Of a DNA stretch of 64,000 nt, positions 4,769-60,689 are shown in pieces. Where the stretch lies: contig JAQTUE010000006.1 in the NCBI GenBank assembly GCA_028710415.1, positions 124,001 through 188,000 of the forward strand, read 5' to 3'. A program made the translations under genes and the position numbers. The notes below the pieces were generated by a model, which was not told the origin of the DNA, ran no database searches, and was given only the letters and a program-made list of their open reading frames with translations. Origin of the DNA: Paludibacter sp. Its GTDB lineage: Bacteria > Bacteroidota > Bacteroidia > Bacteroidales > Paludibacteraceae. Numbering within the stretch: the stretch's first letter is position 1; every line of letters starts with the position of its first letter.

Positions 4769-7663
4769 TTAAAAATTCTGCAGGTATTCAGACAGATTGA
4801 TATCCCGGTCGAGTTCCATTTTTTTGCGCAGGCGGTAGCGGCTCATTTCGACACTGCGGAACGACATGTTGAGCAGCGGTGCAATGTCTTTGGAGGACAG
4901 GTCCATTTTCAGGTAGGCGCATAACTTTTTGTCGCTGATAGTCAGGTTTGGATACCGCTCGCTGAGGCGCATCAGGTAGTTTTCGTACACCAGGTCAAAA
5001 TTCTCGGCAAAGCGTTTCCAGTTGTTATCGTGTTCGATGTTGTGCTTAATTTCGTCCTGCATCTTAGTTATTTCTTTCAGGATGGATTTGGGTTCGGAAC
5101 GATCGGTAATTTCGGTGGCCACCTTTGTCAGGTTTTGCGAAATGTCGAGCAGGATTTCATTCTTACGGATCAAATTCATCGTTGAACTCGCTAATTCCTG
5201 TGACTTATGGCGCAGGTCATAGTTCAAGCGCTGGTTCTTTAATTCAATGATTTCCTTCCTTTTTTCTTTAGCATCTTCCTCGAAACGCTTCTCCTGTTCT
5301 TTCAGTTCCAGTTCCTTCTGTGCTTCCATTTCGCGTGCCCCTTTTTCGGAGTGGGTCTTAATAAAGACAAAGAGCATGTAAATAAGGAAACAGAACAATA
5401 TAAAATAAACGACATTGGCCACCTTGCTTTCATACCAGGGTGGCAGGATGGTAAATTCGTAGGAGGTCTCCACCGGTTTGGCTTCCAGCAGGCTTTTGGC
5501 CCTGACCCTGAAAGTGTACGTTCCCTTTTTAAGTTTTGTATATTCCTTCGAATTACCCGGAGTATAGGCCGACCATTTGGAATCGTATTTGTCGAGCAGA
5601 TAGCTGTAGGTCACCGCTGCTTCGTTCCGGTATTCGGGAGCGACGTATTCGAACCGGACAGAATTATGCATGTGGTCAAATTCCGGTACCTGATTGTTAC
5701 CTGCAGATGGCTGGTATCCACTCACCACAGAGTCACGTTCGTTGGTCAGGTAGACATTGCGGATAGACACTTTAAAGATACTTTTCGCCTTGTTTGATTT
5801 CGATACGTCAATCCATGAGAAACCATCCTCGGTACTGATAATGATGTTGTTATCGTTTATAAAATTAAAATGTTCGAAACCGCTGATCAATTTATTCTTT
5901 AAAGTTGAAAATGACAAGGTATCCAGTTTGTAGGTATTGTTTTTCTGTTTAAAGGCTCCTCCGATATATGAAAAGGAAGAACACCACAGGTCGCCTTTTG
6001 GTGATTCTGTCAATCTGATGGAGTGCGAAGGAACTCCAAATATTTTCTGAAGTTCAAGTGACCTGTCGATGTGTTTGGTAACATCATTATAAGTAAAAAA
6101 TCCGCTTTGAGTGGAGAAAACAATTTTGTTATTTAACCGATACAGGGTATTATCCCGATTTGTAGGAAAAATCAAAGGCAGGTTGAACTGTTCTACTTTG
6201 GAAACACTGTCCAGCCGGGCATTGAGAGTCAGCCTGGATATCCCCTTGATCCAGTGGTTAAACCAGATGCATCCATCGTTGTCTTCCTCGAACATGCCAC
6301 CGGTATCAGTGAACCCTTTGAGGAAATTGGAGAGTTTCCATTTGCCACCTGCTTTTTTCAGGATAAAGAAACCCTGGTAGGAGCACCCCAGGATACAGCC
6401 GGGTGAATGGTGCAATTCGCGGAATCCCCAGGTGCCGAGAATTCCCGGTATTTGTTCCACTTTATTGTCTACAACCATAAATGCCCCGTGGTCGGTACCG
6501 CAGAAAATGGTATTATCGATTTGTGTCAGGCTCCATACCTGCCCCTGCATTTTAGGCAGCAGTTTTACGGGCAGCGGGTTTGGGGAACTGGGAATCGGGT
6601 ACGTTGTGGTATACAATCCCTGGTTGGTGCCCAGATACAATATGTTTTTGCGGATGAAGGAGCTATAGCCCGCGCCAAAAGTCTGGCTGTTCCCAAAAAG
6701 GTCGTACACCGGCGAATTAATGAGGACGTAATCAATCCCTTTGTCCAACCCGAGCCAGAGGTTGTGCTGATGGTCAAAGGCAATGCTTAAGATCGTATTG
6801 TTTTGCATGCCTGAGAAAGTATTCGAAAAAAGGTTTGTGTTCGAAACCAGGTCCTTGACTACCAGTCCATCCCGTACAGTTCCCAATGCAAGCTTTGACC
6901 CTTCGATGGTGGCACAAAACACCTGGTTTTCTGAAAGGAACGCATCGATATCGGTTTTAAAAGGGTCAACCCGTTCGCCATTAAAAACAAATAAGCCATA
7001 AAAATCAGTTACAAACAATATCCTGGTTTTCTCGAAAGGCAAAATGGCGCATATCTTCTTGTTTCGAAGCACATCGGCATTCGGGAACTTCATAAACATA
7101 TTCCCGTTCAAAAACGAAGGGCCTTCCTGAAAGTTGGATATAATCAACGAATTATTGACATCGGCTGAGCAATCGATTTTATTCCTGAATGAAAAGCGGG
7201 TCATTTTGTTTTTCCTCAAACTAAAGATCTCTTTATCACCCTGAAAATAAAAAGTATTATCGATTTTATGGATGTTCCATATCTCGGTAAAGTTTTTGTC
7301 GGCAGGCTTAATTTTGTCAATCAAGGTATTGTATTTCAGTATGCCGGAAGCATTGCGGGCATAGTAGCCAAATTCATTAAAAGCGCCGGCGTAGATACGG
7401 TCGGATTGTTCGTCGTAGTACAAGGAGCGGACATTTGTATAATTCTTTATGGGATAGGTGGTCCATCGATTCCCATCGAACTCCAGCAGGCCTTTGTTAT
7501 TGGCAAAATACATCCAATCGTTGTTGTGTTGGATAATATGCCAGTTTTGGGTACCGGCCATAGAAACCTTGCGGTTGAAGTTACGAATGGATGGTTGGAT
7601 GGCAAAAATAGTCCCCTGAAAAACGAGCATTAAAAGGATAAAACATCGGTAGGAATTTCTCAT
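4769..7663 (-). CDS. Membrane sensor-regulator: propeller, Y_Y_Y domain, LuxR-type HTH
   Basis: The 964-aa protein starts with a signal peptide (MRNSYRCFILLMLVFQGTIF). A periplasmic two-component-propeller region of about 600 residues follows, with repeated [N/G]-hydrophobic-W-hydrophobic-G blades such as NLWLGLDKGIDYV. A Y_Y_Y domain (about 670-740, ending KGTYTFRVRAKS) precedes one membrane helix (about 748-770). After it come a charged coiled coil (about 775-830) and a C-terminal helix-turn-helix (about 904-964, DLSSKDIAPLLNMSFRSVEMSR). It lacks the histidine-kinase and receiver domains of classical hybrid systems, so a periplasmic ligand would be coupled directly to a membrane-tethered DNA-binding domain. 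It is divergent from unit A, and a paralogue of almost equal length lies at 56483-59371. It probably senses glucan oligomers and activates the locus. The ligand is inferred. Confidence 0.88.
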   Translation of the reverse strand: MRNSYRCFILLMLVFQGTIFAIQPSIRNFNRKVSMAGTQNWHIIQHNNDWMYFANNKGLLEFDGNRWTTYPIKNYTNVRSLYYDEQSDRIYAGAFNEFGYYARNASGILKYNTLIDKIKPADKNFTEIWNIHKIDNTFYFQGDKEIFSLRKNKMTRFSFRNKIDCSADVNNSLIISNFQEGPSFLNGNMFMKFPNADVLRNKKICAILPFEKTRILFVTDFYGLFVFNGERVDPFKTDIDAFLSENQVFCATIEGSKLALGTVRDGLVVKDLVSNTNLFSNTFSGMQNNTILSIAFDHQHNLWLGLDKGIDYVLINSPVYDLFGNSQTFGAGYSSFIRKNILYLGTNQGLYTTTYPIPSSPNPLPVKLLPKMQGQVWSLTQIDNTIFCGTDHGAFMVVDNKVEQIPGILGTWGFRELHHSPGCILGCSYQGFFILKKAGGKWKLSNFLKGFTDTGGMFEEDNDGCIWFNHWIKGISRLTLNARLDSVSKVEQFNLPLIFPTNRDNTLYRLNNKIVFSTQSGFFTYNDVTKHIDRSLELQKIFGVPSHSIRLTESPKGDLWCSSFSYIGGAFKQKNNTYKLDTLSFSTLKNKLISGFEHFNFINDNNIIISTEDGFSWIDVSKSNKAKSIFKVSIRNVYLTNERDSVVSGYQPSAGNNQVPEFDHMHNSVRFEYVAPEYRNEAAVTYSYLLDKYDSKWSAYTPGNSKEYTKLKKGTYTFRVRAKSLLEAKPVETSYEFTILPPWYESKVANVVYFILFCFLIYMLFVFIKTHSEKGAREMEAQKELELKEQEKRFEEDAKEKRKEIIELKNQRLNYDLRHKSQELASSTMNLIRKNEILLDISQNLTKVATEITDRSEPKSILKEITKMQDEIKHNIEHDNNWKRFAENFDLVYENYLMRLSERYPNLTISDKKLCAYLKMDLSSKDIAPLLNMSFRSVEMSRYRLRKKMELDRDINLSEYLQNF

Positions 7664-7771
7664 AGATGATAAAGGGATTGTAAAATAAATTAATAAACCG
7701 GGTATTGCAGTTTTTTGTTGAATTCAGTTCAATTTTAGTCGTTTTTTTTTGGTTATAAAGTATGTTGATAT

Positions 7772-7919
7772 ATGTTATACAACATAAAAAACTATAAATT
7801 GCAAAAATTCAGCATTTTACAGCTATTGATGTAGTGGAAATGTTGTGGTCGGAATTGCCCTGAGTAGAGTTTTTGTGAGGAGAAAAATTAGGGCTGAGTG
7901 AAGAATATAAATAAATTTG
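7772..7919 (+). promoter_or_regulatory. Promoter module A: dyad, TGC block, TTTTTGTGAGG, -7 box
   Basis: It drives unit A (GH3 at 8035). Elements are the dyad ATGTT-N4-AACAT (7772-7785), TGCAAAAATTCAGCAT (7800-7815), TTTTTGTGAGG (7870-7880) and a Bacteroidota -7 box TAAATTTG (7912-7919). The dyad end to the -7 start is 127 nt, identical in modules B (30574-30721) and C (59457-59604). TTTTTGTGAGG lies about 31 nt before the -7 box, where an activator would touch polymerase. It sits in the divergent gap beside regulator 1. That the regulator binds here is inference. Confidence 0.8.
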
Positions 7920-8034: not shown

Positions 8035-10263
8035 ATGTTACGAAAAAAGTTGTTTTTATTCCTGTTCACTGCGGTATTTTTCAGTTGTGCCCAAAGTAAA
8101 GATCCTGTTGAGAAAAAGATCGATGAATTATTGTCCCGGATGACCTTGCAGGAAAAAATCGGACAGATGAACCAGTTAACTGGAACCGGATTGTCAGGGG
8201 ATATGATCAGTCAGATCAAGTCAGGGAAAGTAGGTTCCATCCTGAATGAGCTGGATATAAAAACAACCAACGAACTTCAACGCGTGGCGGTGAAAGAAAG
8301 CCGGTTGGGAATACCTGTGGTTTTTGCCCGTGATGTGATCCATGGTTTCAAGACTATTTTCCCGATACCATTGGGGCAGGCTGCTACCTGGAACCCACAG
8401 CTGGTAGAATCGGGCGCACGGGTGGCTGCCCTGGAAGCTACTGCTGCGGGGATTCGATGGACATTTGCACCTATGATTGACATAGCCCGTGACCCACGCT
8501 GGGGACGGATTGCAGAATCGTGCGGGGAGGACCCTTACCTGACGTCCCAAATGGGAGTTGCCATGATAAAAGGATTCCAGGGTGAGAAATTATCCGATCC
8601 TACATCCATGGCTGCCTGTGCCAAACACTTTGCCGGATACGGAGCCACCGAATCGGGGAAAGATTATAATACTACCTGGATTCCGGAGGTGCAATTGCGG
8701 GATGTTTATTTGCCGCCTTTCAAAGCAGCCGTGGATGCCGGGGTATCCAGTTTTATGTGTTCGTTTAATGATATCAACGGAGTACCGTCATCGGGGAATG
8801 AATTCCTGAACCGGCAGGTACTTCGCAAGGAGTGGAATTATTCCGGATTGCTGGTGAGCGACTGGGCTTCGATCGAGCAAATGATAAAACACGGGGTCTG
8901 TACCGATTTATCAGCCGCGACCCAAAAAGCGATTAAAGCCGGCGTTGACATGGACATGATGAGCTATGCCTACATTAACCATGCCGAAGCACTTGTAAAA
9001 TCAGGATCATTAGCCGAAAAACAAATTGATGAAGCGGTACGGAATATACTCCGCATGAAGTTTCGGCTGGGGTTGTTTGAAAACCCATATATAGAGGAGC
9101 CAACCGAAATGCCTTATTATTCGGTGGATGCCCTGTTGAAGGCAAAACAAACTGCCATCGAGAGCACGATATTATTGAAAAATGAAAATAACCTGTTACC
9201 GCTGACGGATGCTGTGAAATCGGTGGCAGTATTGGGTCCTTTGTCGGATGCACCTGCTGATCAGCTTGGAACCTGGTGTTTTGATGCCGAATCCAGCCAC
9301 AGTGTTACTCCGTTGGCAGCCATAAAAACCATGTTAGGTTCATCAGCACAAGTGATTGCCGAGAAAGGATTGACCTATAGCCGCGATATGAATGCGGAAG
9401 GCATTGCCAGGGCAGTTGATGCAGCCAAAAAAGCGGAAGTAATATTACTTTTCGTAGGTGAAGAAGCTGTACTCTCCGGAGAAGCACATTGCCGCGCGGA
9501 TATTTGCCTTCCCGGTGCACAACCTGAACTTATCACCGCATTAAAAAAAACAGGGAAACCAATTGTAATGGTAGTCATGGCAGGCCGTCCGTTGACAATA
9601 GGGAAACAACTTGAGGAAGCAAATGCCGTATTGTACGCTTTTCACGGAGGTACCATGGCTGGTCCCGCACTGGCTGACCTGATATTCGGAAAAGCAGTGC
9701 CATCGGGAAAACTTCCGGTTACCTTGCCCCGCATGGCCGGACAAATACCAATTTATTATTCACATAAAATGACAGGCCGTCCGGCAGAAAATATAGTCAC
9801 CATCAATAATATACCGGTAGGAGCAGGCCAGACCTCGTTGGGGAATACCAGCTATCATTTGGATGCCGGAGACAGCCCGCTCTTTCCGTTTGGATTTGGA
9901 CTATCGTATACCACATTCAAATACTCGGATGTAAAAGTATCAAAAAACATATTGTCGCTTGGCCAGACTATCAATGTATCCTGTACGATTACCAATACCG
10001 GGAAGTACGATGGAGCTGAAGTGGCACAACTTTATACCCGTGATGTAGTGGGTTCGCTGGCACGCCCGGTGAGGGAATTGAAGGGATTCCAGAAAATCAA
10101 CCTGAAAGCAGGGGAAGCAGCAACCGTTAATTTCACCCTGACACCTGACCAGCTTTCATTCTGGAATGCTGATATGGTAAAACTGACTGAGCCGGGAGAT
10201 TTCCAGGTGTGGATATCAGCGGATAGCCAGTGCGGGAAGCCGGGAACGTTTAAGTTTATTTAG
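8035..10263 (+). CDS. GH3 beta-glucosidase, BglX-like lipoprotein
   Basis: This 742-aa GH3 exo-hydrolase removes terminal glucose from beta-glucan oligosaccharides. The start MLRKKLFLFLFTAVFFSCAQS gives a lipoprotein signal with the lipobox Cys at about residue 18, so it is membrane-anchored, probably facing the periplasm. The N-terminal barrel has KHFAGYGATESGKDYNTT and the nucleophile Asp276 in LLVSDWAS. The alpha/beta sandwich follows (LLKNENNLLPL), then the FnIII-like C-terminus with FGFGLSYTTF. It has no T9SS tail, unlike most of its neighbours, which fits final processing of imported oligomers. It is the first gene of unit A and has the shared promoter module. A 300-base repeat-filled gap separates it from the next gene. 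The exact linkage (beta-1,3, 1,4 or 1,6) cannot be read. Confidence 0.93.
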   Translation: MLRKKLFLFLFTAVFFSCAQSKDPVEKKIDELLSRMTLQEKIGQMNQLTGTGLSGDMISQIKSGKVGSILNELDIKTTNELQRVAVKESRLGIPVVFARDVIHGFKTIFPIPLGQAATWNPQLVESGARVAALEATAAGIRWTFAPMIDIARDPRWGRIAESCGEDPYLTSQMGVAMIKGFQGEKLSDPTSMAACAKHFAGYGATESGKDYNTTWIPEVQLRDVYLPPFKAAVDAGVSSFMCSFNDINGVPSSGNEFLNRQVLRKEWNYSGLLVSDWASIEQMIKHGVCTDLSAATQKAIKAGVDMDMMSYAYINHAEALVKSGSLAEKQIDEAVRNILRMKFRLGLFENPYIEEPTEMPYYSVDALLKAKQTAIESTILLKNENNLLPLTDAVKSVAVLGPLSDAPADQLGTWCFDAESSHSVTPLAAIKTMLGSSAQVIAEKGLTYSRDMNAEGIARAVDAAKKAEVILLFVGEEAVLSGEAHCRADICLPGAQPELITALKKTGKPIVMVVMAGRPLTIGKQLEEANAVLYAFHGGTMAGPALADLIFGKAVPSGKLPVTLPRMAGQIPIYYSHKMTGRPAENIVTINNIPVGAGQTSLGNTSYHLDAGDSPLFPFGFGLSYTTFKYSDVKVSKNILSLGQTINVSCTITNTGKYDGAEVAQLYTRDVVGSLARPVRELKGFQKINLKAGEAATVNFTLTPDQLSFWNADMVKLTEPGDFQVWISADSQCGKPGTFKFI

Positions 10264-29695: not shown

Positions 29696-30573
29696 AGGCA
29701 TTAATTTTATTTTGATACAACTTAAGTCGTAAGCTATAACTTAAAACAGAACACTTTAGCCTATGGTTTCAATAAACTAATTAACTAAATTAGCTGTTCA
29801 ACTTAATCAGAAAACTTAGTCTCCATTTGTTCTTGGTTGCGAGGGGGTTGCGAGGGGGTTGGCTGGGGGTTGGCTGGGGGTTCCGAGGGCCCTGGCCCTC
29901 GAAACCCCCTCGAAAGGCCCTCGAAACCCCCTCGAAAGGCCCTCGATACCCCCTTGATACCCCCTCGAAAGTAAGACTTTACAAAGACCGGATCAAGAGC
30001 TGTGTCAATCCAACAGCCTGAAAAGTGATTTCGGAATTTCATCCGGAATTCAGGGCGAAATGATATTCCTGCTTTGTTCGAAATGCATCATACAGATCCT
30101 TACAAGTAGTTTCTTTAGAAAATTTAATTGTTGCGGTTAAAATACAAAGCGTTTTTTCAAAGAAATGTGCATGTTTATGCATTAAATTCATTTTAATTTA
30201 TATATTTGAACTTTTATCAGGTTCATTATGCTGAGAATATGGAGTTAAAATAGAACGTTAAGTATCAAAAAGCGAAAGTTTAAATCCCAACGAAGAATCA
30301 ATTTGGTTTTCAATATCCTTACCGATTTAATTTAGGAAAAGGTCCGGTTGCGGGGAATTGCTTCAGGAATAAATTCTGCCGGATTGAATAATGGTTCCTA
30401 TAAGCAATTCTTCAAAGAAAAATTACCGGAAGCGCTACTAAATCAAATTAACTTACCGGATGGAAAAAACAATTGAACGCATCGTTCGAACAGCATTCTT
30501 GTTTTAGTAAAGGATAATTCGAGTTCAAATCAGAAAAAGGGTGTATTTTTCATTGTGAAATACAAGTAAAAAC
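29696..30573. other. Non-coding gap between units A and B
   Basis: It holds the G/C-rich 11-bp-periodic hairpin (29839-29971), an orphan -7-like box TATATTTG (30201-30208), and a 47-codon open stretch without a start (30336-30476) that might be a gene remnant but matches nothing I know. No functional gene is supported here. Promoter module B follows directly. Confidence 0.7.
29839..29971. repeat. Long hairpin of 11-bp repeats, G/C-rich variant (copy 3)
   Basis: The left arm has four 11-bp units (GCGAGGGGGTT twice, GGCTGGGGGTT twice; 29839-29882). The centre is CGAGGGCCCTGGCCCTCG. The right arm runs in exact 11-bp steps from 29897 to 29971 (units such as CCTCGAAACCC, CCTCGAAAGGC, CCTCGATACCC). 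The flank ATTTGTTCTTGGTTG resembles ATTTGTTTTAGGTTG of the copies at 3.8 and 54.1 kb, so it is a diverged member of that family. G/C content is far above that of its surroundings. Confidence 0.85.
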
Positions 30574-30721
30574 ATGTTGTAGAACATATAATTATTTAAC
30601 ATGCACGAATACAGATAGATATGTCGATTCATGTAGTAGCTGAATGAAAGAAAATGAGTTGAACTGTGAGTTTTTGTGAGGTGAAAATTGATGTTCTATC
30701 ATTTTATTTCGTCTATATTTG
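30574..30721 (+). promoter_or_regulatory. Promoter module B: dyad, TGC block, TTTTTGTGAGG, -7 box
   Basis: It drives unit B. Elements are the dyad ATGTT-GTAG-AACAT (30574-30587), TGCACGAATACAGATA (30602-30617), TTTTTGTGAGG (30671-30681) and the -7 box TATATTTG (30714-30721), 54 nt before the ATG at 30775. Spacing from dyad end to -7 box start is 127 nt as in modules A and C. No regulator gene is adjacent here, so any factor must act in trans. Confidence 0.8.
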
Positions 30722-30774: not shown

Positions 30775-31698
30775 ATGAAAAGATTTACAAAAAAAGCAAT
30801 GATGCTGGTAGTGGCCATGCTAATTTTAGGGAGTGTTTTTGTACAGGCTGAAAAACGGTACGTATTTGCATTAGGTGGATTTCCTAAAACCAACGGAGTC
30901 GCAGATCCAGGTTGGAATGCAAACTGGGTAGATTTCAGATTAGACGATTTGAACAGGATATTGTATATCTGGGCATCAGGTGAAACAATCGCGGGAACTC
31001 CGGCTGTTGGTGTTGGAGCATTGGGTCAAACAGGTTACCAGGCGTTTAATGTGGCTGCACCGGCAGGATGGTGGGGCTGCGGATATTATGTAGGTCCGGA
31101 TAGCGGAAATGCAACAGCCAGTATGGATATGACTGATGTTACTACAGCAGGGGTATTTCACTTTGCAATTCGTACCACTTGCGCAACTGATATTACTATC
31201 AACCTTTATGGAAGTACAGTTGATCCTTCCGATCCATTTATTACTGCCATTACGAATGGTAAGTTTATTATCAACACAACCAATTTACCGGTTTCTAAAC
31301 GCGATGGAACACAATGGGTAGAATTTAATGTACCTATGACTCAATTAATGGGACCTTCGGTAGTTGCAACGAATAACTTACGTTACTTAGGCCCAGTAAA
31401 GAAATGTAATTACCTGACTTTTGCAGGTGGAAATGACAAGGGCAGCTTTATTGCATGGGATAATGTTTACGTTTCAACCGGAGCAACAGCCGTTGAATCT
31501 GTAAAAGCAGACAAACTTGATATTTCGATGGTAGGAAACCAACTCAAGGTTTCGGATAACACAAATACAGTGAATATATTTTCAGTAAGCGGAGCCCGGG
31601 TATTAAGCAGCAAACTGAACGATATTGATATCTCCGGTCTTAAATCAGGCGTCTATGTAGTGAAAGCAGGAAACCGGGTTTCTAAATTCAACAAATAA
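30775..31698 (+). CDS. Secreted single-domain glycan-binding-like protein, T9SS
   Basis: This 307-aa protein has a signal peptide ending VFVQA, one all-beta domain (about 20-240) and a short T9SS tail (NIFSVSGARVLSSKLND to SGVYVVKAGNRVSKFNK). The domain has WVDFRLDDLNRILYIWASGE, GWWGCGYYVG, FHFAIRTTC and GTQWVEFNVPM. These line up with the three tandem domains of the protein at 60835 (for example YLDLRPN, WFGVGFVN, ILHFVLKTT, GQWHVVEIPM). I do not know an established family name. It is the first gene of unit B, next to SusC/SusD, a usual place for a surface glycan-binding protein, so that role is inferred. No catalytic signature is seen. Confidence 0.78.
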   Translation: MKRFTKKAMMLVVAMLILGSVFVQAEKRYVFALGGFPKTNGVADPGWNANWVDFRLDDLNRILYIWASGETIAGTPAVGVGALGQTGYQAFNVAAPAGWWGCGYYVGPDSGNATASMDMTDVTTAGVFHFAIRTTCATDITINLYGSTVDPSDPFITAITNGKFIINTTNLPVSKRDGTQWVEFNVPMTQLMGPSVVATNNLRYLGPVKKCNYLTFAGGNDKGSFIAWDNVYVSTGATAVESVKADKLDISMVGNQLKVSDNTNTVNIFSVSGARVLSSKLNDIDISGLKSGVYVVKAGNRVSKFNK

Positions 31699-31719
31699 TT
31701 CATTTCAACCTTTCAATTT

Positions 31720-31759
31720 AAATTTGGTTGCTTAACAACAGACTTAAGCAACCAAATTT
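31720..31759 (+). terminator. Intercistronic hairpin before susC
   Basis: AAATTTGGTTGCTTAA (31720-31735) pairs perfectly over 16 bp with 31744-31759 around an 8-nt loop. There is no T-run. It lies between the promoter-proximal binding-protein gene and susC and could set the higher level of the first gene relative to the transporter. Confidence 0.7.
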
Positions 31760-31883
31760 CACCTATCACCTATCACCTTTTTATTAAATCAGGGTTCCCT
31801 GAATGCCGGGAGGGGGTTGACTTTTCACATGAATTTCCAAATCATAAATCTCATTAATTTCACCAGCTTAAATTTAATTATTT

Positions 31884-34800
31884 ATGAAAAAAGAACTAAT
31901 CTCTCTTTTCATTTTCATCGTAATCAGTCTGACTGCTTTTGCACAAGAGTACAAAGTAAGCGGAACGATCATTTCCGACGATGATAAAATGCCAATTATT
32001 GGAGCGAATGTTGTCGTTAAAGGAACAAGCAAAGGTACTATCACAGATTCGAACGGACAGTTCACAATTGAGGTACAAAAAAACAAGAGCCTTTTATTTT
32101 CATATATAGGCTATCTAAATGAAGAACAAAAAATCACTAATAATATTTCAAATCTTAAGATAACCCTCAAAACAAATTCCGTTGTTCTTGACGAAGTAGT
32201 TGCTGTGGGGTATGGTACAGTTAAGAAAAGTGACCTGACCGGGGCTGTAGCATCGGTTTCAGGAGAACAGTTACGGAAACTTCCTGCAGCCAGTATTGAT
32301 AAAGCCTTGCAGGGATTGACTCCGGGTGTAACCGTGGTAGCCAATAGTGGCCAACCGGGATCGGATATGGTTATTCGTATCCGTGGTATTGGTACAACAA
32401 ATGATGCATCCCCTTTATTTGTGGTGGATGGTGTTATGGTGGGGAATATAAATTTTTTATCGCCAAACGATATTAAATCAGTTGAAGTATTGAAAGATGC
32501 ATCTTCATCGGCTATTTACGGAGCGCGAGGTGCGAATGGTGTGATATTGGTAACAACCAACCAGGGAAACAGAAGCGGAAAAATGACCTTGTCGGTGGAT
32601 GCTTATTATGGAGTACAAAACCGTGCCAAGAAATTAAGCTTAATGAATTCCGACCAATTATCAAAATTCTGGGGTTATACTGGTACCTCTTCAAAAGATT
32701 TCAACGATTGGGTATTTACTAACTTTTCGAAAGCCAAGCCTTATATCCCTACCGGATTAGATTTCTCAAATGTTAATACTGACTGGCAAGACGTCGTATT
32801 TACCGGTAATGCTCCGATACAAAATTATCACGTAGCTGCAAACGGTGGAACTGAAAAAACTTCTTACTCTATCAGTGCCGGCTATTTTGATCAAAGCGGT
32901 ATCATTATGACCTCTTATTTTAAAAGGTTTACATTTCGGGTAAATTCTTCAGCCCAAGTAAACGATTGGCTTAAAGTGGGTGAAAATATGTCACTCATGA
33001 CATCCGACTCCCGTGGAGGAAATCCGAACAGTGACCAATCTTCATTGCTTAACAGTGCCATTCGGTTTGCCCCTTGGGATAGGCCTTATTATCCGGCAGG
33101 TGTAGCATTAGGTTCGGATATTGTTGATCCGTACTGGGTAGCTGCTTCTACAATTACGAACTACGTTAACCCGATAAGTATGACTGTTTTCGATCACCCA
33201 TCAAATCAGTTTGACCGTCTGGTTGGTGATGCTTATCTGGAAATAAAACCATTTAAAGATTTAGTTTATAAAGCTGATTTTGGGATTGATCTTTCATATG
33301 GCAGAAACCGGGAATTTAAAGAAGCTTATAAAGTTTCGCCAACTGATTTCTTTCAACCCACCAATTTTATCACTGAAGGTTTTCAACGCTATCAGACCTG
33401 GTCGGTAGAACAAACATTGACATATAGCAAAGTAATAGGAAAGCATAATTTCTCAGCCATGGTTGGATCATCCGTGTCGGAATATATGTTTAATTCATTG
33501 GGAGGATCAAAGGTTGGTATCGCGTATCCTACTCCAGATAACTGGTACATATCAATGGCAACTGGTGACCCTACTAAGACAACTTTAGGAGATGGTGTCG
33601 GACGTGACCGCTTAGCTTCTTTTTTAGGTCGTGTGAACTATTCCTATAATAACAGGTATTTATTTACCGCCAATTTCCGTGCCGATGGTTCTACTAAATT
33701 TCCTGTAAACAATCTTTGGGGATATTTCCCATCATTTTCTTTAGGATGGAAAGCCAGTGAAGAAGAGTTTTTCGCACCTTTACGTTCAACAATCGACATT
33801 TTAAAAGTAAGGGCAGGATGGGGACAAATTGGAAATGAAAAAATTAATGGCAATAACTTTTTCCCAAAAGTTACCCAAGGTATTGAGTTTGTTACGTATG
33901 CATTCGGTACCGGTGATCAACAACTGGCAAATGGAGGCACAATGACTTCATTACCAACCAAGAATTTAAAATGGGAAACCACAGAACAATCCAATATAGG
34001 GATCGATTTTGGTATGTGTCGAAATCGTCTTACCGGTAGCATGGATTATTATATCAAAGACACCAAAGACATGCTTTTAAGTGTTGTATTACCCGAGCAT
34101 CTTGGAATAGAATTTCCTTCACCTGCCAATGTAGGGCAGGTAAGAAACAGCGGATTTGAATTGCTATTAAACTGGAGGGATAAAATAACCAAGAACTTAA
34201 ATTTCTCAGTTGGAGGGAATCTGGCAACTGTAAAAAATAAATTCACCAAAATGGGTGCCAGTTCACCGTTGGTGTATGAAAACTTTAATGGAGAAACTTT
34301 AACCCGCTCTATAGAAGGGTATCCATTGTATTCTTTCTATGGCTATACTTCCGACGGAATATATCAAAACCAATCGGAAATAGATAATAATGTAGTCAGG
34401 GATGCCAGTGGAAAAGTCGGTTTATACCAATATGGAGCTGATGGAAAACCTTTTCATGATGCCAATGGGAATCTGGTTGCAGATCCTAATGGGAAACAAG
34501 TTCAGATTACCATTCCCGGTATAATGGCCCCTGGTGATATCCGTTATAAAGATTTAAATGGCGATGGATTAATAACTGACAAAGATAAAAAGATATTAGG
34601 AAGTTCATTCCCTACTTTTACTTACGGGTTCAATGCATCACTTGATTATAAAGGATTTGATATTTCTTTATTTTTCCAGGGAGTTTCAGGAAATATGATT
34701 TACAATTGTAACCGGGTAATCCTGGAAGGACAAGTTGCCAAGGCAACCAATTTAAGCACAGCTATGGCTGATTCATGGAGTGTAACCAATCCTTCGACTA

Positions 34801-35087
34801 CAATGCCTCGTCCTTTTGGCAATACAGCAAATTATTGGGCATCTGATCGTTTTTTGGAAGATGGAAGCTACCTGCGATTGAAGAATGCACAAATTGGCTA
34901 TAATTTACCAAAAAAAATCCTTGCACCTGCAAAAATTGAATCATGCAGACTTTATGTTTCTGGGACTAATTTGTTGACCTTTACCAAATACACAGGGTAT
35001 GATCCGGAAGCAAGTTATTCGGGTGTGGACAGAGGGAATTATCCTCAGGCAGTAACTATTTTGTTTGGTGTTAAAATGGACTTATAA
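31884..35087 (+). CDS. SusC-like TonB-dependent outer-membrane transporter
   Basis: The 1067-aa protein has a signal peptide (MKKELISLFIFIVISLTAFA), an N-terminal carboxypeptidase-regulatory-like domain (YKVSGTIISDDDKMPIIGANV, GQFTI), a TonB-box-like stretch (DEVVAVGYGTVKKSDLTGAV) and the plug (LQGLTPGVTV, IRIRGIGTTNDASPLFVVDG, ASSSAIYGARGANGVILVTT). The rest is a 22-strand-type barrel ending TILFGVKMDL. It imports glycan oligosaccharides across the outer membrane using TonB-derived energy, in complex with the SusD-like protein encoded 64 bases downstream. The substrate is inferred from neighbouring GH81, GH128 and GH16 enzymes. Confidence 0.96.
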   Translation: MKKELISLFIFIVISLTAFAQEYKVSGTIISDDDKMPIIGANVVVKGTSKGTITDSNGQFTIEVQKNKSLLFSYIGYLNEEQKITNNISNLKITLKTNSVVLDEVVAVGYGTVKKSDLTGAVASVSGEQLRKLPAASIDKALQGLTPGVTVVANSGQPGSDMVIRIRGIGTTNDASPLFVVDGVMVGNINFLSPNDIKSVEVLKDASSSAIYGARGANGVILVTTNQGNRSGKMTLSVDAYYGVQNRAKKLSLMNSDQLSKFWGYTGTSSKDFNDWVFTNFSKAKPYIPTGLDFSNVNTDWQDVVFTGNAPIQNYHVAANGGTEKTSYSISAGYFDQSGIIMTSYFKRFTFRVNSSAQVNDWLKVGENMSLMTSDSRGGNPNSDQSSLLNSAIRFAPWDRPYYPAGVALGSDIVDPYWVAASTITNYVNPISMTVFDHPSNQFDRLVGDAYLEIKPFKDLVYKADFGIDLSYGRNREFKEAYKVSPTDFFQPTNFITEGFQRYQTWSVEQTLTYSKVIGKHNFSAMVGSSVSEYMFNSLGGSKVGIAYPTPDNWYISMATGDPTKTTLGDGVGRDRLASFLGRVNYSYNNRYLFTANFRADGSTKFPVNNLWGYFPSFSLGWKASEEEFFAPLRSTIDILKVRAGWGQIGNEKINGNNFFPKVTQGIEFVTYAFGTGDQQLANGGTMTSLPTKNLKWETTEQSNIGIDFGMCRNRLTGSMDYYIKDTKDMLLSVVLPEHLGIEFPSPANVGQVRNSGFELLLNWRDKITKNLNFSVGGNLATVKNKFTKMGASSPLVYENFNGETLTRSIEGYPLYSFYGYTSDGIYQNQSEIDNNVVRDASGKVGLYQYGADGKPFHDANGNLVADPNGKQVQITIPGIMAPGDIRYKDLNGDGLITDKDKKILGSSFPTFTYGFNASLDYKGFDISLFFQGVSGNMIYNCNRVILEGQVAKATNLSTAMADSWSVTNPSTTMPRPFGNTANYWASDRFLEDGSYLRLKNAQIGYNLPKKILAPAKIESCRLYVSGTNLLTFTKYTGYDPEASYSGVDRGNYPQAVTILFGVKMDL

Positions 35088-35151
35088 AGAGTTTACAATT
35101 GCCAATTTGAGATTGACGATTTAAATGAAGAACAAATTAAAAATCAAATCA

Positions 35152-36852
35152 ATGAAAACAAAAATATATTTAATACTGGCACTTGTTACTACTGTAATGC
35201 TAAGCAGTTGTAATGATTATTTAACTCCAACGCCACTCGCGATAGTAAAGTTAAGCGATTATTTTACAAGTGACACAGCGGCTATAGCTGCGGTCAATGC
35301 AGCCTATGTACCGTTACAATGGCAATATGGCAGTAATGGGCTTACTTACGGAAACGAATGGTTTATAGGAGATGTAGTATCGGACGATGCCCTTAAAGGG
35401 GGAGGGGGAACCGTAGGCTCGGATATGAATACCGTTTATTTAATGGAAAATTTCCAGGGCAGCGCAAACAATAATTACCTGGAAACACTTTACACCATAA
35501 ATTACCAAGGGATTTTCCGCACCAATTTTGCAATGGAAAATATCAATGGTATGCAAGCGGGAACAATTACTCAGGCTATAAAAGACCGGTTAATTGGTGA
35601 ATCCAAATTCTTACGTGCTTATTATCATTTTAGGTTAATGCGTTTATTCGGTGGAATTATAAAGGGAGATCGCACTTTTACTCAGAGTGATGCCTTAATG
35701 GCTCGTTCATCAAAGGAAGAAATCGACAAATTTATCCGTCAGGACCTGGAAGATGCCATAAAATTACTTCCATTAAAAAGTGAATATGCCAGTACGGAAT
35801 TAGGACGCGCAACGAAAGGATCAGCCCAGGCCATGTTGATGCGGGTTATTCTTTTCGATATTAATGAATCATTTGCCAATAAGACAGCTGATTATGCTCA
35901 TGTGATTTCTTTGGGGGACAGTATTATTGCTTCTAACCAATACCAGTTAAAGGTAAAGTATCAGGATTTTTTCAAGACATTCTACAATATCCCGGCTGTT
36001 GTTGCCAAATTTGTCGAAGAAAATGGTCCGGAATCAGTTTTTGAAGTTCAATATATTTCGGAATCCACATCCGATTGGGGAGGTTCAGCAGGAGGATTGG
36101 GAATGACCCGTGGAAATTTTGACCCATTAGTAACCCGCTCGAGGGGAGGTGGTTTAGCCGGAGTCCTGTCAGCATCAAGTCAAACGGGTTATGGTTTCAA
36201 CCGGCCAACCCAGGATTTGTATGATGAATTCGAACCTGGTGATAACAGGCGTGATGAGGCAATTTTACCATACGATTCAACGGATGTATATGGAACAGAA
36301 GCTGAACATTTTTACAACGATGGGTATCATGCCCGTAAAGCGACCCTGGGATTTTGGGTAGCTTACAAAGGAAAACAAATATTTATCAATCCTACATTTT
36401 ATGCCATGCGTTCACCAAGCAATACATTCATAATTCGATATTCCGATGTATTATTAATGTATGGTGAAGCGAAATGTGAAAGCAATGATGTCAATGGGGG
36501 TGCAGCTGCTTTGAATTTAGTCAGGCAGCGTGCCAAAAATTCATCAACAAATCCTCTTGATCCAACTATTTTACCACTTTTCCCTTATGGGGGTTATACC
36601 AATGATCAAACAGGTTTACGTGCTGCAATCCGTCATGAACGTCGTGTTGAATTCGCTATGGAAGGACAACGTTGGTTTGACCTGGTACGCTGGCGTACAG
36701 CCGAACAGGTTATGAATGCGTATCGTCAAAAATATATCACTAAAGAAGGAAAGGATATGAGTGCATTTGACCCAAATAAGCACTATTTATTCCCAATTCC
36801 TGAAACACAGTTGAACGCGAATCCACTATTAAAACAAAATCCGGGATATTGA
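35152..36852 (+). CDS. SusD-like glycan-binding lipoprotein
   Basis: The frame opens at 35125, but the lipoprotein signal MKTKIYLILALVTTVMLSSC starts at Met10, 35152, giving 566 aa. The lipobox LSSC followed by NDYL is typical of SusD proteins. RagB/SusD features include FLRAYYHFRLMRLFGG, RATKGSAQAMLMRV, DVLLMYGEAKCESND, AALNLVRQRA, RHERRVEFAMEGQRWFDLVRW and the C-terminal HYLFPIPETQLNANPLLKQNPGY. It caps the SusC barrel on the cell surface and captures the oligosaccharide. Confidence 0.96.
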   Translation: MKTKIYLILALVTTVMLSSCNDYLTPTPLAIVKLSDYFTSDTAAIAAVNAAYVPLQWQYGSNGLTYGNEWFIGDVVSDDALKGGGGTVGSDMNTVYLMENFQGSANNNYLETLYTINYQGIFRTNFAMENINGMQAGTITQAIKDRLIGESKFLRAYYHFRLMRLFGGIIKGDRTFTQSDALMARSSKEEIDKFIRQDLEDAIKLLPLKSEYASTELGRATKGSAQAMLMRVILFDINESFANKTADYAHVISLGDSIIASNQYQLKVKYQDFFKTFYNIPAVVAKFVEENGPESVFEVQYISESTSDWGGSAGGLGMTRGNFDPLVTRSRGGGLAGVLSASSQTGYGFNRPTQDLYDEFEPGDNRRDEAILPYDSTDVYGTEAEHFYNDGYHARKATLGFWVAYKGKQIFINPTFYAMRSPSNTFIIRYSDVLLMYGEAKCESNDVNGGAAALNLVRQRAKNSSTNPLDPTILPLFPYGGYTNDQTGLRAAIRHERRVEFAMEGQRWFDLVRWRTAEQVMNAYRQKYITKEGKDMSAFDPNKHYLFPIPETQLNANPLLKQNPGY

Positions 36853-56482: not shown

Positions 56483-59371
56483 TTAAAAGCGTTGGAGGAA
56501 CTCACCCAGGTTCACCTCCCTGTCAAGGTCCATCTTCTTGCGCAGGCGATAACGGCTCATCTCTACGCTTCTGACGGACATGTTCAGCAGCGGGGCAATA
56601 TCCTTGGACGAAAGGTCCATTTTAAGGTATGCACAGAGCTTTTTATCGCTGGTGTTTAATTCGGGATACATATCACCCAACCGTTTCAGGTAGTTTTCGT
56701 ACACCAGGTCAAAGTTCTCTTCGAATCGTTTCCAGTTATTGTCGTTTTCAATGTTCTGCTTGATGGTGCGTTCCATCTTGTTCAGCCTTGATAACAACGT
56801 ACCGGAATCGTGGCTGGCTTTAATATCATCTGATACCTTTGTGATATTGTCCATGATATCAAGCAGGATTTCATTCTTACGGATCAGATTCATCGTTGAA
56901 CTCGCCAATTCCTGTGATTTATGCCGAAGCTCATATTGCAGTTGCTGGTTCTTTAGTTCTTTTATTTCCCTCTTCTTTTCAGATGTTTCTGCTTCGAAAT
57001 GTTTCTTTTGCTCTTTCAGTTCTATTTCCTTCTGACGTTCCATATCCAATGCCCCTTTTTTGGACCGTTGGTTGATAAACAGTACTATCCAGACTAAAAG
57101 ACCTAAAAATAAGAGAATGTAAATGAATATGGCCAGTTGCGATTCATACCAGGCAGGCAAAATAGTGAATGAATAGGCGGTTATGGCCTCCTTTGATTCC
57201 AGTGTGTTATGTGCCCTGACTTTAAATACATAGTGGCCCTTTGGCAGGTGGGTGTATTCCTTTATGTTGTCAGAGCTGTACTTCGACCAGGTGTCATCAT
57301 AATTTTCGAGCATATAACTATATTGTACCATCCCTTCATTGCGATACTCAGGGGCAACAAACTCGAACCGGATAGAGTTCTGTTTGTGGCTGTAGGCGTC
57401 GGAGAAATTAATCTTTTCGATGATGCCATTATTTGCACCCGATGCAACCCTGTTGCTTGTAATCACCACGTTGTGAAGATGGACTTTAAAGGTACTCTTT
57501 GTAACCGGCATCTTACGGGTGTCTATCCAGCTGAAGCCGTCTTCCGTATTCAGGATCAGATTGTCCTTGTCGATGAAATTGAAGTGCTCGAACCCAATGA
57601 TCAGTTTGGGCTGAAGTATCCGGTAGGTCAACGAATCCATCTGATACTTATTGCCTGCCATCTTCTTAGCCAGTCCTACAAATTTACCGGAGACACACCA
57701 TACGTCGCCATTCTTGCCTTCGTGCAACCGCATATAACTTGGCGGGGCATTAAACAGCTTGTTCCATTTGTCGTATGGATCCATTCTGTTGGATTTTTTA
57801 TTATACCGGTAGAAGCCTTTTTCAGAAGAGAAAATAATTTCATTTCCTATTTTAAATAATGTATTGTTCCGGTTGCTGGGGAATCCCTTATTCGTGTCGT
57901 AGGTATCAACGTGTGTTATACTATCCATCGAGCTATTAAAGTGCAACCTGAATAACCCTTTCTGCCAATGGCTAAACCAGAGATTTCCATCAAGGTCTTC
58001 TTCGAACATAGGGCTGGACTCATTAAACATTCCCTTGATGAAATGGGAGAATTTCCAATTATTACCAATCTTCTTCAGGATAAATAATCCCTGGTAAGAA
58101 CAACCCAGGATCAGTTCGGGATGATGCTGCAGGCGTTTAAACGACCAGGTTCCGGTTAACTCAGGGATTCGCTCTGTGCGAGTGGGATAAATGATAAATG
58201 CACCCTGGTCATCACCACAGAAGAGGGTGTTGTCAATTTCATTCAACGACCAGATTTGACCCTCCATGCCTTTCATTAAATTTAACTGGACAGGAAGCGA
58301 ACTATTCGGCAGGGGGTAGGTCGTTGAATAAAGTCCCTGGTTGGTACCGAAATACAAAAGGTTATTCTTTAACAGGGAAGTATACCCGGCGCCATAGAGG
58401 TTGTTGGTGCCAAACATATTTAAAACAGGGCTGTTGAGCATCACATAATCAATTCCCTTGTCAAGTCCCAGCCACAGATTCTGTTGGTTGTCGAATGCGG
58501 CACTCAGGACAGTATTGTTTTGAAGCCCTGAATAGGTATTGACATAAATAACCTTTCCATCGATTAAATCCTGTACCACGATACCATTTTGCACTGTTCC
58601 AAAAACCAGTTTCTTACCGTTGGTGGTAGCACAAAAGACCTGGTTCTTCATTAAGAACCCGTCAATCCCGGTATTGTAAGGGACAATGGAAACACCATCG
58701 AACAGATACGTGCCATTAAAACTGGTAACAAACAGGATCTTATTGTCTTTAAAAGGCAGGATAGAACAAACTTTTTTACCAACAAGCAACTCAGAACCTG
58801 AAATGCGCACGAATAAACGGCCATTGAGCATGAATACCCCTTTCTGGGAGCTGGCTACAAACAATACATTATGTACGTAGGCAGCGATATCTATTTTATC
58901 ATTGAACGCATAACCGGTGACGGTATCTCCATCATACTGATAGACTGCCCTGCTGGCCTGAAAGTATATTTTCTTGTCCCCCTGGATGATATTATAGAGT
59001 TCGTTTGAATTGATAGAATTCTTCTTAAGTTTATTCATCAGGGAATGGTATTCCAGTTGGCCGTTCTCTAAAGCCTTATAATACCCGAATTCATTGAAGG
59101 TGGAGGCATAAATGCGTCCATCCTTAGTATACAGGATCGAGCGGACATTCGTGCCGTTCTTAATCGGGAAGGTGGACCATTTTTTACCATCAAACTCCAA
59201 CAGTCCAAAGTTATTGGCAAAATACATGGTATTCGATGCATCCTGGGCTATATCCCAGTTTTGAGTCCCGGCATTATAACCGGAACGGGTAAAATTACGA
59301 ACCAAAGGCTGGTTGGAAAAGGCGGAGATTGCCATATTTAAAAATAGCACAAGAATAAAACTCTTTTTCAT
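56483..59371 (-). CDS. Membrane sensor-regulator, paralogue of regulator 1
   Basis: The 962-aa protein has the same architecture as the protein at 4769-7663: signal peptide (MKKSFILVLFLNMAISAFS), periplasmic propeller with NLWLGLDKGIDYVMLNSPV, Y_Y_Y domain (KGHYVFKVRAHNT), membrane helix (FIYILLFLGLLVWIVLFI), coiled coil and LuxR-type HTH (DLSSKDIAPLLNMSVRSVEMSR). The cytoplasmic half is almost identical between the two, while the propellers differ. That suggests the same DNA sites but different or shifted ligands. It is divergent from unit C, and its own -7 box lies inside module C, so autoregulation is likely. There are no kinase or receiver domains. Confidence 0.88.
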   Translation of the reverse strand: MKKSFILVLFLNMAISAFSNQPLVRNFTRSGYNAGTQNWDIAQDASNTMYFANNFGLLEFDGKKWSTFPIKNGTNVRSILYTKDGRIYASTFNEFGYYKALENGQLEYHSLMNKLKKNSINSNELYNIIQGDKKIYFQASRAVYQYDGDTVTGYAFNDKIDIAAYVHNVLFVASSQKGVFMLNGRLFVRISGSELLVGKKVCSILPFKDNKILFVTSFNGTYLFDGVSIVPYNTGIDGFLMKNQVFCATTNGKKLVFGTVQNGIVVQDLIDGKVIYVNTYSGLQNNTVLSAAFDNQQNLWLGLDKGIDYVMLNSPVLNMFGTNNLYGAGYTSLLKNNLLYFGTNQGLYSTTYPLPNSSLPVQLNLMKGMEGQIWSLNEIDNTLFCGDDQGAFIIYPTRTERIPELTGTWSFKRLQHHPELILGCSYQGLFILKKIGNNWKFSHFIKGMFNESSPMFEEDLDGNLWFSHWQKGLFRLHFNSSMDSITHVDTYDTNKGFPSNRNNTLFKIGNEIIFSSEKGFYRYNKKSNRMDPYDKWNKLFNAPPSYMRLHEGKNGDVWCVSGKFVGLAKKMAGNKYQMDSLTYRILQPKLIIGFEHFNFIDKDNLILNTEDGFSWIDTRKMPVTKSTFKVHLHNVVITSNRVASGANNGIIEKINFSDAYSHKQNSIRFEFVAPEYRNEGMVQYSYMLENYDDTWSKYSSDNIKEYTHLPKGHYVFKVRAHNTLESKEAITAYSFTILPAWYESQLAIFIYILLFLGLLVWIVLFINQRSKKGALDMERQKEIELKEQKKHFEAETSEKKREIKELKNQQLQYELRHKSQELASSTMNLIRKNEILLDIMDNITKVSDDIKASHDSGTLLSRLNKMERTIKQNIENDNNWKRFEENFDLVYENYLKRLGDMYPELNTSDKKLCAYLKMDLSSKDIAPLLNMSVRSVEMSRYRLRKKMDLDREVNLGEFLQRF

Positions 59372-59456: not shown

Positions 59457-59604
59457 ATGTTTAAAAACACATTATTTTACAAGATGCTGAAATACAAATA
59501 TATAAAATTTATTTTGTCGTAACTTTGAGTAGTGCAATGAGACGTCAATTGTATTTTTGTGAGGTAAAATATTCTATATTAAAATTAAAATTCAACTAAA
59601 TTTG
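59457..59604 (+). promoter_or_regulatory. Promoter module C: dyad, TGC block, TTTTTGTGAGG, -7 box
   Basis: It drives unit C. Elements are the dyad ATGTT-TAAA-AACAC (59457-59470, one mismatch), TGCTGAAATACAAATA (59485-59500), TTTTTGTGAGG (59554-59564) and the -7 box TAAATTTG (59597-59604), 119 nt before the ATG at 59724. Dyad end to -7 start is 127 nt, identical to modules A and B. Confidence 0.8.
59495..59502 (-). promoter_or_regulatory. -7 box of regulator 2
   Basis: TATATTTG on the minus strand lies 123 bases upstream of the regulator's ATG (59371). It overlaps the TGC block of module C (59485-59500), so a protein bound there for unit C would also cover the regulator's promoter. Confidence 0.6.
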
Positions 59605-59723: not shown

Positions 59724-60689
59724 ATGAGAAAGAGATACCGGATTTTAAATTTAAGTTTCCTGTTGATGTTGATCGTTGCCGGATCAACGGCTCAAATTAA
59801 CAACACATCTGCACGTTCACAGGAAAAGGGGGATGATTACCATTTAGTATGGCAAGATACTTTTGATGGACCGAAACTGGATGAAGCCAACCATTGGAAC
59901 ATAGTAGTAAACGGGAAAGGAGGAGGGAACCGCGAACTTCAGTATTATAAGCGTGAAAATATATCAGTTGGCAAGGAGCCTGCAAGTGGTGAAAATTGCC
60001 TGATTATTACTGCCAGAAAAGAGAACTACTTCCTGAAAAATTATACCTCCGGAAGACTCTCAACCAAGGATAAAGTTAGTTTCAAATATGGAAAGATAGA
60101 AGCCAGAATGAAATTACCCAAGACAGCGAACGGTTTATGGCCGGCATTCTGGATGCTGGGCAGTGATTATCCGAAAGCGGTATGGCCAAAATGTGGTGAG
60201 ATAGACATTATGGAGATGGGAAATAGAAATGGAATCATCCAGGGAATCCAGGATAAGTATTTTAATGGGGCATGCCATTGGGGTGAACGGTTCAATCATG
60301 GTAAATATCCCAATTATGCAAAAGCAAAAACAAGTCCCTATTGCCTGCAGGATGGTTTTCATTTATATACCTTAATATGGGATGAAAATGCCCTTAAAAT
60401 GTATGTGGACTTAGATAAATATCCAACCAATGAGCCGTATTTCGAAATGCCTATCAATGGTAAGAATGAACCGAACAATTCAGCACACTATTTTCACAAA
60501 CAATTCTTTATTGTATTTAACCTGGCAGTGGGAGGGAATTTCCCCGGGATAAGGCATTCAAAAGATATTACAGCACTGAAGGATGGAGAAGCAAAAATGT
60601 ATGTTGATTATGTGCGGGTATACCAGAAAGGGAATACAGCAGAACAATTTAACGGTCCAAAATTGTTGGGTGATAACGGAATGAATTAA
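59724..60689 (+). CDS. GH16 beta-glucanase without T9SS tail
   Basis: In this 321-aa enzyme a signal peptide (ending AGSTAQ) precedes a GH16 domain that fills the rest. The active site EIDIME gives Glu159, Asp161 and Glu164. It is close to the GH16 at 48112 (QYYKRENISVG, LPKTANGLWPAFWML) but lacks the sorting domain, ending EQFNGPKLLGDNGMN. It should stay in the periplasm unless anchored otherwise, and may trim imported oligomers. No lipobox Cys is visible. It is the first gene of unit C, with the shared promoter module. Confidence 0.94.
   Translation: MRKRYRILNLSFLLMLIVAGSTAQINNTSARSQEKGDDYHLVWQDTFDGPKLDEANHWNIVVNGKGGGNRELQYYKRENISVGKEPASGENCLIITARKENYFLKNYTSGRLSTKDKVSFKYGKIEARMKLPKTANGLWPAFWMLGSDYPKAVWPKCGEIDIMEMGNRNGIIQGIQDKYFNGACHWGERFNHGKYPNYAKAKTSPYCLQDGFHLYTLIWDENALKMYVDLDKYPTNEPYFEMPINGKNEPNNSAHYFHKQFFIVFNLAVGGNFPGIRHSKDITALKDGEAKMYVDYVRVYQKGNTAEQFNGPKLLGDNGMN

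Follow-up and report, generated by a model that had tools for sequence, protein, structure and literature searches.

A predicted composite promoter joining a Crp-type palindrome to the operator of SusR-like regulators at beta-1,3-glucan-type genes of Paludibacter

Three promoters in the 64-kb stretch of Paludibacter sp. DNA analysed here (the window) share a series of sequence blocks in near-fixed register, and the series recurs beside close homologues of two regulators encoded in the window. We interpret it as a composite promoter that combines the operator of SusR-like beta-1,3-glucan regulators with a Crp carbon-status site in fixed phase, a reading to which the sequence comparisons below lead us to assign a probability of about 0.8.

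Layout of the three promoters and their genes

The window encodes GH3, GH81, GH16, GH2, and Glyco_hydro_cc proteins together with SusC/SusD and two SusR-like regulators, and it looks like a beta-1,3-glucan (laminarin-type) utilization region. The source genome record carries 6.3% contamination. Sites A and C are in the divergent spaces adjoining the two regulators, and site B is upstream of SusCD genes. The gap of ~1 kb upstream of site B holds a low-complexity, repetitive ORF-like stretch (window 29827-30042). The features are as follows.

4769 to 7663, minus strand: SusR-like regulator 1, 964 amino acids, divergent from site A, with Reg_prop and Y_Y_Y domains
7772 to 7785 (flanks 7771-7786), no strand: site A, palindrome of the Crp/BT4338 type, TATGTTATACAACATA, 0 mismatches to TATGTTnTAnAACATA
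7800 to 7811, plus strand: site A, distal block of the SusR part (TGCnnRAATWCA; family consensus TTGAtnAnCA)
7830 to 7848, plus strand: site A, middle blocks TGTAGT ... TGTTGTGG
7867 to 7880, plus strand: site A, proximal block GAGTTTTTGTGAGG, whose 11-mer occurs 3 times in the window
7912 to 7919, plus strand: site A, -7 box of the Bacteroidota type, TAAATTTG
8035 to 10263, plus strand: first gene of unit A, GH3 (later genes include GH81 and GH3 proteins)
30574 to 30587, no strand: site B, palindrome of the Crp/BT4338 type, CATGTTGTAGAACATA, 1 mismatch, in the flank only
30602 to 30613, plus strand: site B, distal block of the SusR part
30632 to 30637, plus strand: site B, TGTAGT
30668 to 30681, plus strand: site B, proximal block GAGTTTTTGTGAGG
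30714 to 30721, plus strand: site B, -7 box TATATTTG
30775 to 36852, plus strand: first genes of unit B, a 307-amino-acid protein (sub-threshold Por-tail match), a SusC-type TonB receptor, and SusD
56483 to 59371, minus strand: SusR-like regulator 2, 962 amino acids, divergent from site C
59457 to 59470, no strand: site C, degenerate dyad of the Crp type, ATGTTTAAAAACAC, 2 mismatches, weak
59485 to 59496, plus strand: site C, distal block of the SusR part
59515 to 59520, plus strand: site C, TGTCGT
59554 to 59564, plus strand: site C, proximal block TTTTTGTGAGG
59597 to 59604, plus strand: site C, -7 box TAAATTTG
59724 to 60689, plus strand: first gene of unit C, GH16

The dyads (ATGTT-N4-AACAY) start at 7772, 30574, and 59457, all on the plus strand. 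Counted from the dyad start, TGCnnRAATWCA lies at +28, TGTMGT at +58, and TAnnTTTG at +140 in all three promoters, and the 11-mer TTTTTGTGAGG lies at +98 in A and at +97 in B and C. This confirms the common block order given in a preliminary description of this DNA, as well as the constant offsets claimed there, apart from the one-base move of the 11-mer in A; the distance of 127 from dyad end to -7 start that it reported for all three is correct as a coordinate difference, with 126 bases in between. The last block matches TAnnTTTG exactly at A, B, and C, and this is the Bacteroidota sigma-ABfr -7 promoter consensus in the accessible part of PMC7366714. An RNA leader element was rejected because the blocks are upstream of the -7 box.

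An ungapped alignment of A, B, and C has 49 identical columns out of 149, a value that no triple reached among 200,000 drawn at random from the window's intergenic DNA (mean 13.0, standard deviation 3.8, maximum 45). Block-shuffled copies of 935 kb of relatives' loci contained no match to a model trained on A, B, and C, and on these two controls a chance origin of the module was rejected. Within the 64 kb, TTTTTGTGAGG occurs three times, solely at A, B, and C (first-order Markov expectation, 0.043 per strand), and so does TGCnnRAATWCA, while the dyad pattern has one extra match, inside regulator 1 (6084, minus strand). TGTMGT (55 matches) and TAnnTTTG (81 matches, both strands) are each common in the window, so their evidential weight comes solely from position. 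In the whole 6.28-Mb genome, TTTTGTGAGG followed by TAnnTTTG at promoter distance is found three times, always in the window, and the reversed control once.

The regulators and the module in other genomes

Regulators 1 and 2 are 53% identical, with 315/647 identities in the sensor part and 55/69 in the helix-turn-helix (HTH) region. Regulator 1 has a transmembrane-like segment near residue 750 and a C-terminal LuxR/NarL-like HTH. Pfam GerE scores below its cut-off in both proteins (16.6 and 16.9 bits versus 23.5). AlphaFold models the C-terminal 185 residues as a long helix plus an HTH with the NarL-type four-helix fold (pLDDT 83.8, pTM 0.52), and Foldseek matched this structure to the DosR, LiaR, VraR, and NarL domains (TMt 0.70-0.78, probability 0.99-1.0, E 0.1-0.6), none at an E value of ≤0.001. 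By its modelled fold, the C terminus looks like a LuxR/NarL-type HTH. Assignment to the hybrid two-component systems (HTCS) was rejected, as kinase, receiver, and AraC Pfam domains are absent from both regulators.

The recognition-helix letters RSVEMSRYRLRKK are identical in the two paralogues, which suggests that both probably read the same operator. The corresponding letters are RS[VI]E in 14 of 14 rows with a strong module; the distant rows (n = 20) comprise 18 with RG[VI]E, one with RSVE (G033, without a module), and one with KGVE (C43). RSVE is also found in two close homologues without a module (G075 and G140). C43, a third SusR-sized regulator, had no module in the 12 kb examined, where a contig end cuts its upstream side.

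Regulator 1 was searched in 150 genomes of the family, stretches around 40 matches were fetched, and 24 modules (regulator-adjacent ones plus sites from a DNA pattern) were aligned. The same layout occurs beside close regulator homologues in several genera; among these relatives, G094 and G105 belong to the genus of the window genome and G031 to its family. The conserved islands of the alignment are TTGAAAT joined to the dyad, TTGAtnAnCA, TGTaG, TGTTGA, TTGAGTTTTTGTGWGG, and TAnnTTTGC. The second block of the preliminary description is present as TGCnnRAATWCA in A, B, and C, and TTGAtnAnCA is the better consensus over the 24 modules. That description lacks two elements: TTGAAAT, which immediately precedes the dyad, and TGTTGA, at ~29 bases upstream of the 11-mer. 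The 11-mer itself often has TTGAG in front of it. Centre to centre, TTGAtnAnCA and TTTTTGTGWGG are ~67 bp apart, and TTGAAAT and TGTTGA ~78 bp. A simple search for internal direct repeats in A, B, and C gave weak scores, and repeat similarity was also weak in a comparison over 18 of the 24 modules. TGTTGA-like words at about -107, -29, -7, and +1 to +4 from the 11-mer averaged 3.3-5.0 matches out of 7 (reverse complement, at most 3.4; another control word, overlapping the 11-mer, 5.4); in these figures, as in the spacings of the same comparison, L089 is misanchored and the middle-block positions are unsure in B, C, and some others. We regard a TGTTGA-like half-site array as a lead.

The spaced motif that the preliminary description proposed to build from A, B, and C did find the module in relatives: it returned 34 rows at an E value of ≤1 and 27 at ≤0.01, counts in which some DNA appears in two loci and which come from loci largely chosen for regulators or pattern matches. 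The 11-mer and -7 box alone were poorly specific across the 150 genomes (14 matches versus 5 for the reversed control), and two of the 14 (L132 and L138) look like chance.

The 24-module model gave 23 matches at an E value of <1e-8 in the 150 family genomes, spread over 12 genomes including the window's own. Such a strong module is present in 12 of 14 family genomes with a regulator of at least 48% identity (own genome included) and in 0 of 136 others (Fisher P = 5e-16), a test with some circularity, as these genomes supplied 18 of the 24 training modules. No module was found in the DNA examined (L079 and L091) around the regulators of G075 (62%) and G140 (truncated, 57%). At the loose cut-off of E ≤ 0.01, the model matches in 58 of the 150 genomes. 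The order-level test is one in which the foreign genomes contributed no training sequence. Among the matches listed for the 393 genomes of this sample, foreign regulators of at least 47% identity occur only in G179 (52%), G170 (49%), and G344 (47%), and directly upstream of all three lies a module match (1e-11, 3e-12, and 5e-7, respectively). Otherwise, E ≤ 1e-5 was reached solely in the window's own genome and in two others: G018, where the match is 141 bases away from the 3' end of a regulator with 34% identity, and G517, where it precedes a 36% regulator by 540 bases. The matches in these two begin at model position 29-30, past the dyad; this search used fast filters with few candidates scored per genome, so that weak matches may be hidden. 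A scan of GTDB species with a DNA-only pattern returned 14 matches, 13 of them on contigs with a SusR-like gene: 10 loci contain a whole or partial one (35-83% identity), and 3 are on the same contigs as others. The remaining match, in a Woesebacteria genome, looks like chance. The association with Y_Y_Y/LuxR-type regulators claimed previously is borne out by modules beside close homologues in both the family and the order samples.

The model also found a fourth site in the window's own genome (C104:238620-238787, E 5.5e-17). Its 11-mer lies ~167 bases before the gene of a 704-amino-acid protein that matches structures 4pew (3e-117) and 4tyv (5e-116), both titled only "Putative secreted protein" in the structure listing. 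We take these to be a GH55 exo-beta-1,3-glucanase and hence call the 704-amino-acid protein GH55-type. The first large downstream genes, tested at 10 of 23 sites, encode two GH3 proteins, one GH30 protein, two SusC proteins, one MFS sugar transporter, the GH55-type protein of site 4, two proteins with sub-cut-off Por-tail matches (one also with an fn3 domain), and one protein without a family. These genes and the fourth site support the earlier claim that the blocks define a set of beta-glucan-type promoters.

The distance from the dyad to the 11-mer is usually 96-98 bp, also in other genera and families (the dyad of L190 was placed from the model alignment; a simple scan misplaced L190 and L159). 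When the gap was freed over 69-99 bases (31 lengths), 10 of the 14 GTDB matches fell on two adjacent lengths, which bears out the conserved spacing; of the rest, one took the next length (Bacteroidaceae), two were 8-9 bp shorter, and one was elsewhere. From the 11-mer to the -7 box, the distance is 42-43 in most modules and 44 in G170. In L126 and L127 (Prevotellaceae and Muribaculaceae), which are nearly identical, a GTGAGGTTTTTGTGAGG tandem has a Crp palindrome 89 bp upstream of it and adjoins a 35% SusR-like gene; 89 bp is close to one helical turn below 96-98 bp. The bases between blocks, which the preliminary description held to have drifted, have done so in part (identity of 0.44 versus 0.61 in blocks), and the drift is incomplete relative to the 0.32 expected from composition (19 of the 24 modules; five near-duplicates left out). 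With 0.44 above 0.32, the modules may owe some of their constant spacing to common descent; a spacing that is kept in several families and between paralogous promoters speaks for constraint.

The outer dyad as a probable Crp/BT4338 (Cur)-type site

In Bacteroides, the Crp/BT4338 palindrome, wwwTATGTTnTAnAACATAwww in the part of PMC3878776 available to us, has ATGTT-N4-AACAY at its centre; site A has no mismatch to TATGTTnTAnAACATA, B one, in the flank, and C two. At fusA2, removal of the palindrome abolished BT4338 binding (PMC6989115, in the accessible text). On sequence grounds, the outer dyad is probably a Crp/BT4338 (Cur)-type site. The window's own genome encodes four Crp-family proteins above cut-off and contains 24 places, including A and B, that match the palindrome with ≤1 mismatch, versus 1 for the reversed control. 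Two of these places are flanked by genes encoding NrtR/AraR-type domains and have FGGY kinase and class II aldolase (Aldolase_II) genes in the vicinity, a setting like that of the arabinose genes on which the Bacteroides motif was identified (PMC3878776, same part). At least one exact palindrome is present in 104 of the 150 family genomes, and the reversed control in 11. Exact palindromes track one widespread Crp-family protein, being found in 100 of 127 genomes with it and in 4 of 23 without it (Fisher P = 3e-8, uncorrected for kinship and genome size; 3 of the 23 were assigned by absence from the list).

The dyad is separable from the remainder of the module. Five other palindrome regions of the window's own genome had no TTTTTGTGWGG (best, 3 mismatches), so the dyad by itself is no marker of the module. 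Conversely, the dyad is degenerate in the L087 and L179 modules, in which the rest is kept, and among eight weak matches beside 34-37% regulators, five start at model position 29-33, past the dyad, and three span the dyad columns (L102 twice and L106).

Several palindromes elsewhere in the window's own genome are arranged in groups. Three near-identical ones on contig C30 (L037:7011, 7416, and 7824) are ~405-408 bp apart, suggesting a repeat array, and two identical ones on C35 (L040:5078 and 5849) are 771 bp apart by two small similar-looking ORFs (118 and 128 amino acids). On C2 (L036), three palindromes precede consecutive genes for chondroitinase-B-like/fn3-domain proteins, which may mark another polysaccharide region, one that has Crp-type sites and lacks the SusR block. 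At L045:984-1018, a palindrome-like sequence (2 mismatches) lies just after an TAAATTTG box near the start of a Crp-family gene, a candidate reader of the palindrome for which autoregulation is possible.

Proposed mechanism, alternatives, and significance

In the mechanism that we propose, the segment from TTGAtnAnCA to TTTTTGTGWGG would be the operator of the adjoining SusR-like regulators. We picture the SusR-like protein as a one-component regulator whose membrane-spanning segment links a propeller/Y_Y_Y sensor in the periplasm to a LuxR/NarL-like HTH in the cytoplasm. Glucan oligosaccharides would switch it to bind the long operator, which ends ~45 bp before the predicted start, and it would then recruit RNA polymerase at TAnnTTTG. 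A Crp-type protein (BT4338/Cur type), active when easy carbon is scarce, would bind the dyad. From there, ~150 bp upstream of the predicted start and beyond usual direct contact, it may assist by standing in constant helical phase with the SusR-like protein, and the two inputs would form a two-input gate. A stronger version, to which we give somewhat less than even odds, is a composite enhancer in which Crp/Cur sits off RNA polymerase in one helical register across Bacteroidales families, locked to a half-site array of the membrane-anchored SusR-like protein. Starvation and glucan signals would be co-read at the promoter, and Crp/Cur would control these polysaccharide loci directly.

The preliminary description took the module for the footprint of one activator multimer, and the whole 149 bp, dyad included, could indeed be one large operator of a SusR-like multimer, given that all blocks of A, B, and C are in near-fixed register, that the 96-98 bp from dyad to 11-mer extends to other genera and families, and that the TTGAAAT abutting the dyad resembles the downstream TGTTGA. 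We consider this unlikely, because many copies of the palindrome stand in other parts of the genome unaccompanied by the other blocks, some by arabinose-type genes, and because it equals the published Crp/BT4338 consensus and is degenerate where the rest is kept (L087, L179, and five of eight weak matches). It is also quite unlikely that the dyad serves the divergent regulator gene, with its fixed place relative to the glucan operon a by-product. A and C do lie in divergent intergenic regions, in which the dyad starts 109 and 86 bases, respectively, away from the start codon of the regulator gene, but the dyad keeps its place at B, site 4, G094-C97, G031b, and G092b, five sites with no divergent ORF of at least 200 amino acids directly upstream (none, or one 1.9 kb off for B).

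Copying offers another account of the spacing, in which the modules are recent promoter duplicates that moved with operon duplication. The regulators are paralogous (53%), the region has repeated gene types, and the inter-block identity among relatives exceeds composition, all as copying would have it. Against it, the ungapped A/B/C alignment has no high identity outside the blocks, modules adjoin 47-52% regulators in other families, and an A-like and a B-like promoter share one contig in other species (L121/L124 and L122/L123). A is 0.73 and 0.72 identical to L121 and L122, and B 0.72 to L123, versus a module-pair median of 0.52, so that the divergence of the paralogous promoters probably predates that of these species, with the register kept since. 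Pure duplication is rejected by this pairing in other species, and we hold recent copying to be very unlikely as the source of the spacing.

The statement in the preliminary description that no consensus like this one had been described was too strong, as both the dyad consensus and two-site SusR-like motifs appear in the available part of PMC3878776. The latter (SusR BT3705, SusR2, SusR3 BT3309, and SusR4 of Bacteroides) are predicted to be direct repeats spaced 67 or 77 bp from centre to centre. In regulator type and layout, the features compared, the module resembles them through its long split operator, and its distances of ~67 and ~78 bp would fit theirs, with weak repeat similarity; it differs in having more than two conserved blocks, an attached Crp site, and beta-1,3-glucan-type genes. 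With the beta-1,6-glucan locus of B. thetaiotaomicron and the beta-1,3-glucan loci of gut Bacteroidota, as far as the accessible parts of PMC5481569 and PMC7157763 describe them, the region has in common a sensor-regulator, SusCD, and GH16/GH30/GH3 enzymes. The former source names the SusR-type BT3309 at the beta-1,6-glucan locus of B. thetaiotaomicron, and a figure legend on 1,3-glucan loci in the latter lists a SusR-like sensor-regulator. For the Bacteroides 1,3-glucan loci, those portions of PMC7157763 describe HTCS control, without promoter architecture, whereas the regulators here are SusR-like. SusR has no occurrence in the accessible text of PMC12596196, and a literature search, with supplements and most subscription journals outside its reach, returned no description of the composite promoter. 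The component parts are of known kinds; the rigid composite looks like a new variation on them.

With the Crp/BT4338 (Cur) system of Bacteroides the dyad shares the consensus, the many genomic sites, some by arabinose-type genes, and the encoded Crp-family proteins. Here, promoters of polysaccharide loci incorporate the palindrome, mostly at 96-98 bp from the specific block; in contrast, the accessible parts of PMC6989115 report no BT4338 ChIP signal at polysaccharide utilization genes of B. thetaiotaomicron. For BT4338-dependent polysaccharide genes without such a signal, that source suggests that BT4338 acts indirectly, that signals were missing, or that the epitope tag had an effect; in later work, how it acts on one polysaccharide utilization locus is described as unknown (PMC11501099, in the portion available). 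Direct versus indirect action of BT4338/Cur on polysaccharide loci is left open in these two sources, and DNA recognition by SusR-like regulators is called poorly studied in the same part of PMC3878776. The module offers a sharp operator consensus tied to a recognition helix and a means of finding beta-1,3-glucan-type genes scattered over the genome, such as the GH55-type gene on another contig. It appears to define a promoter family with direct Crp input built in at a fixed distance, which suggests a direct Crp/Cur route to polysaccharide loci in other Bacteroidales.
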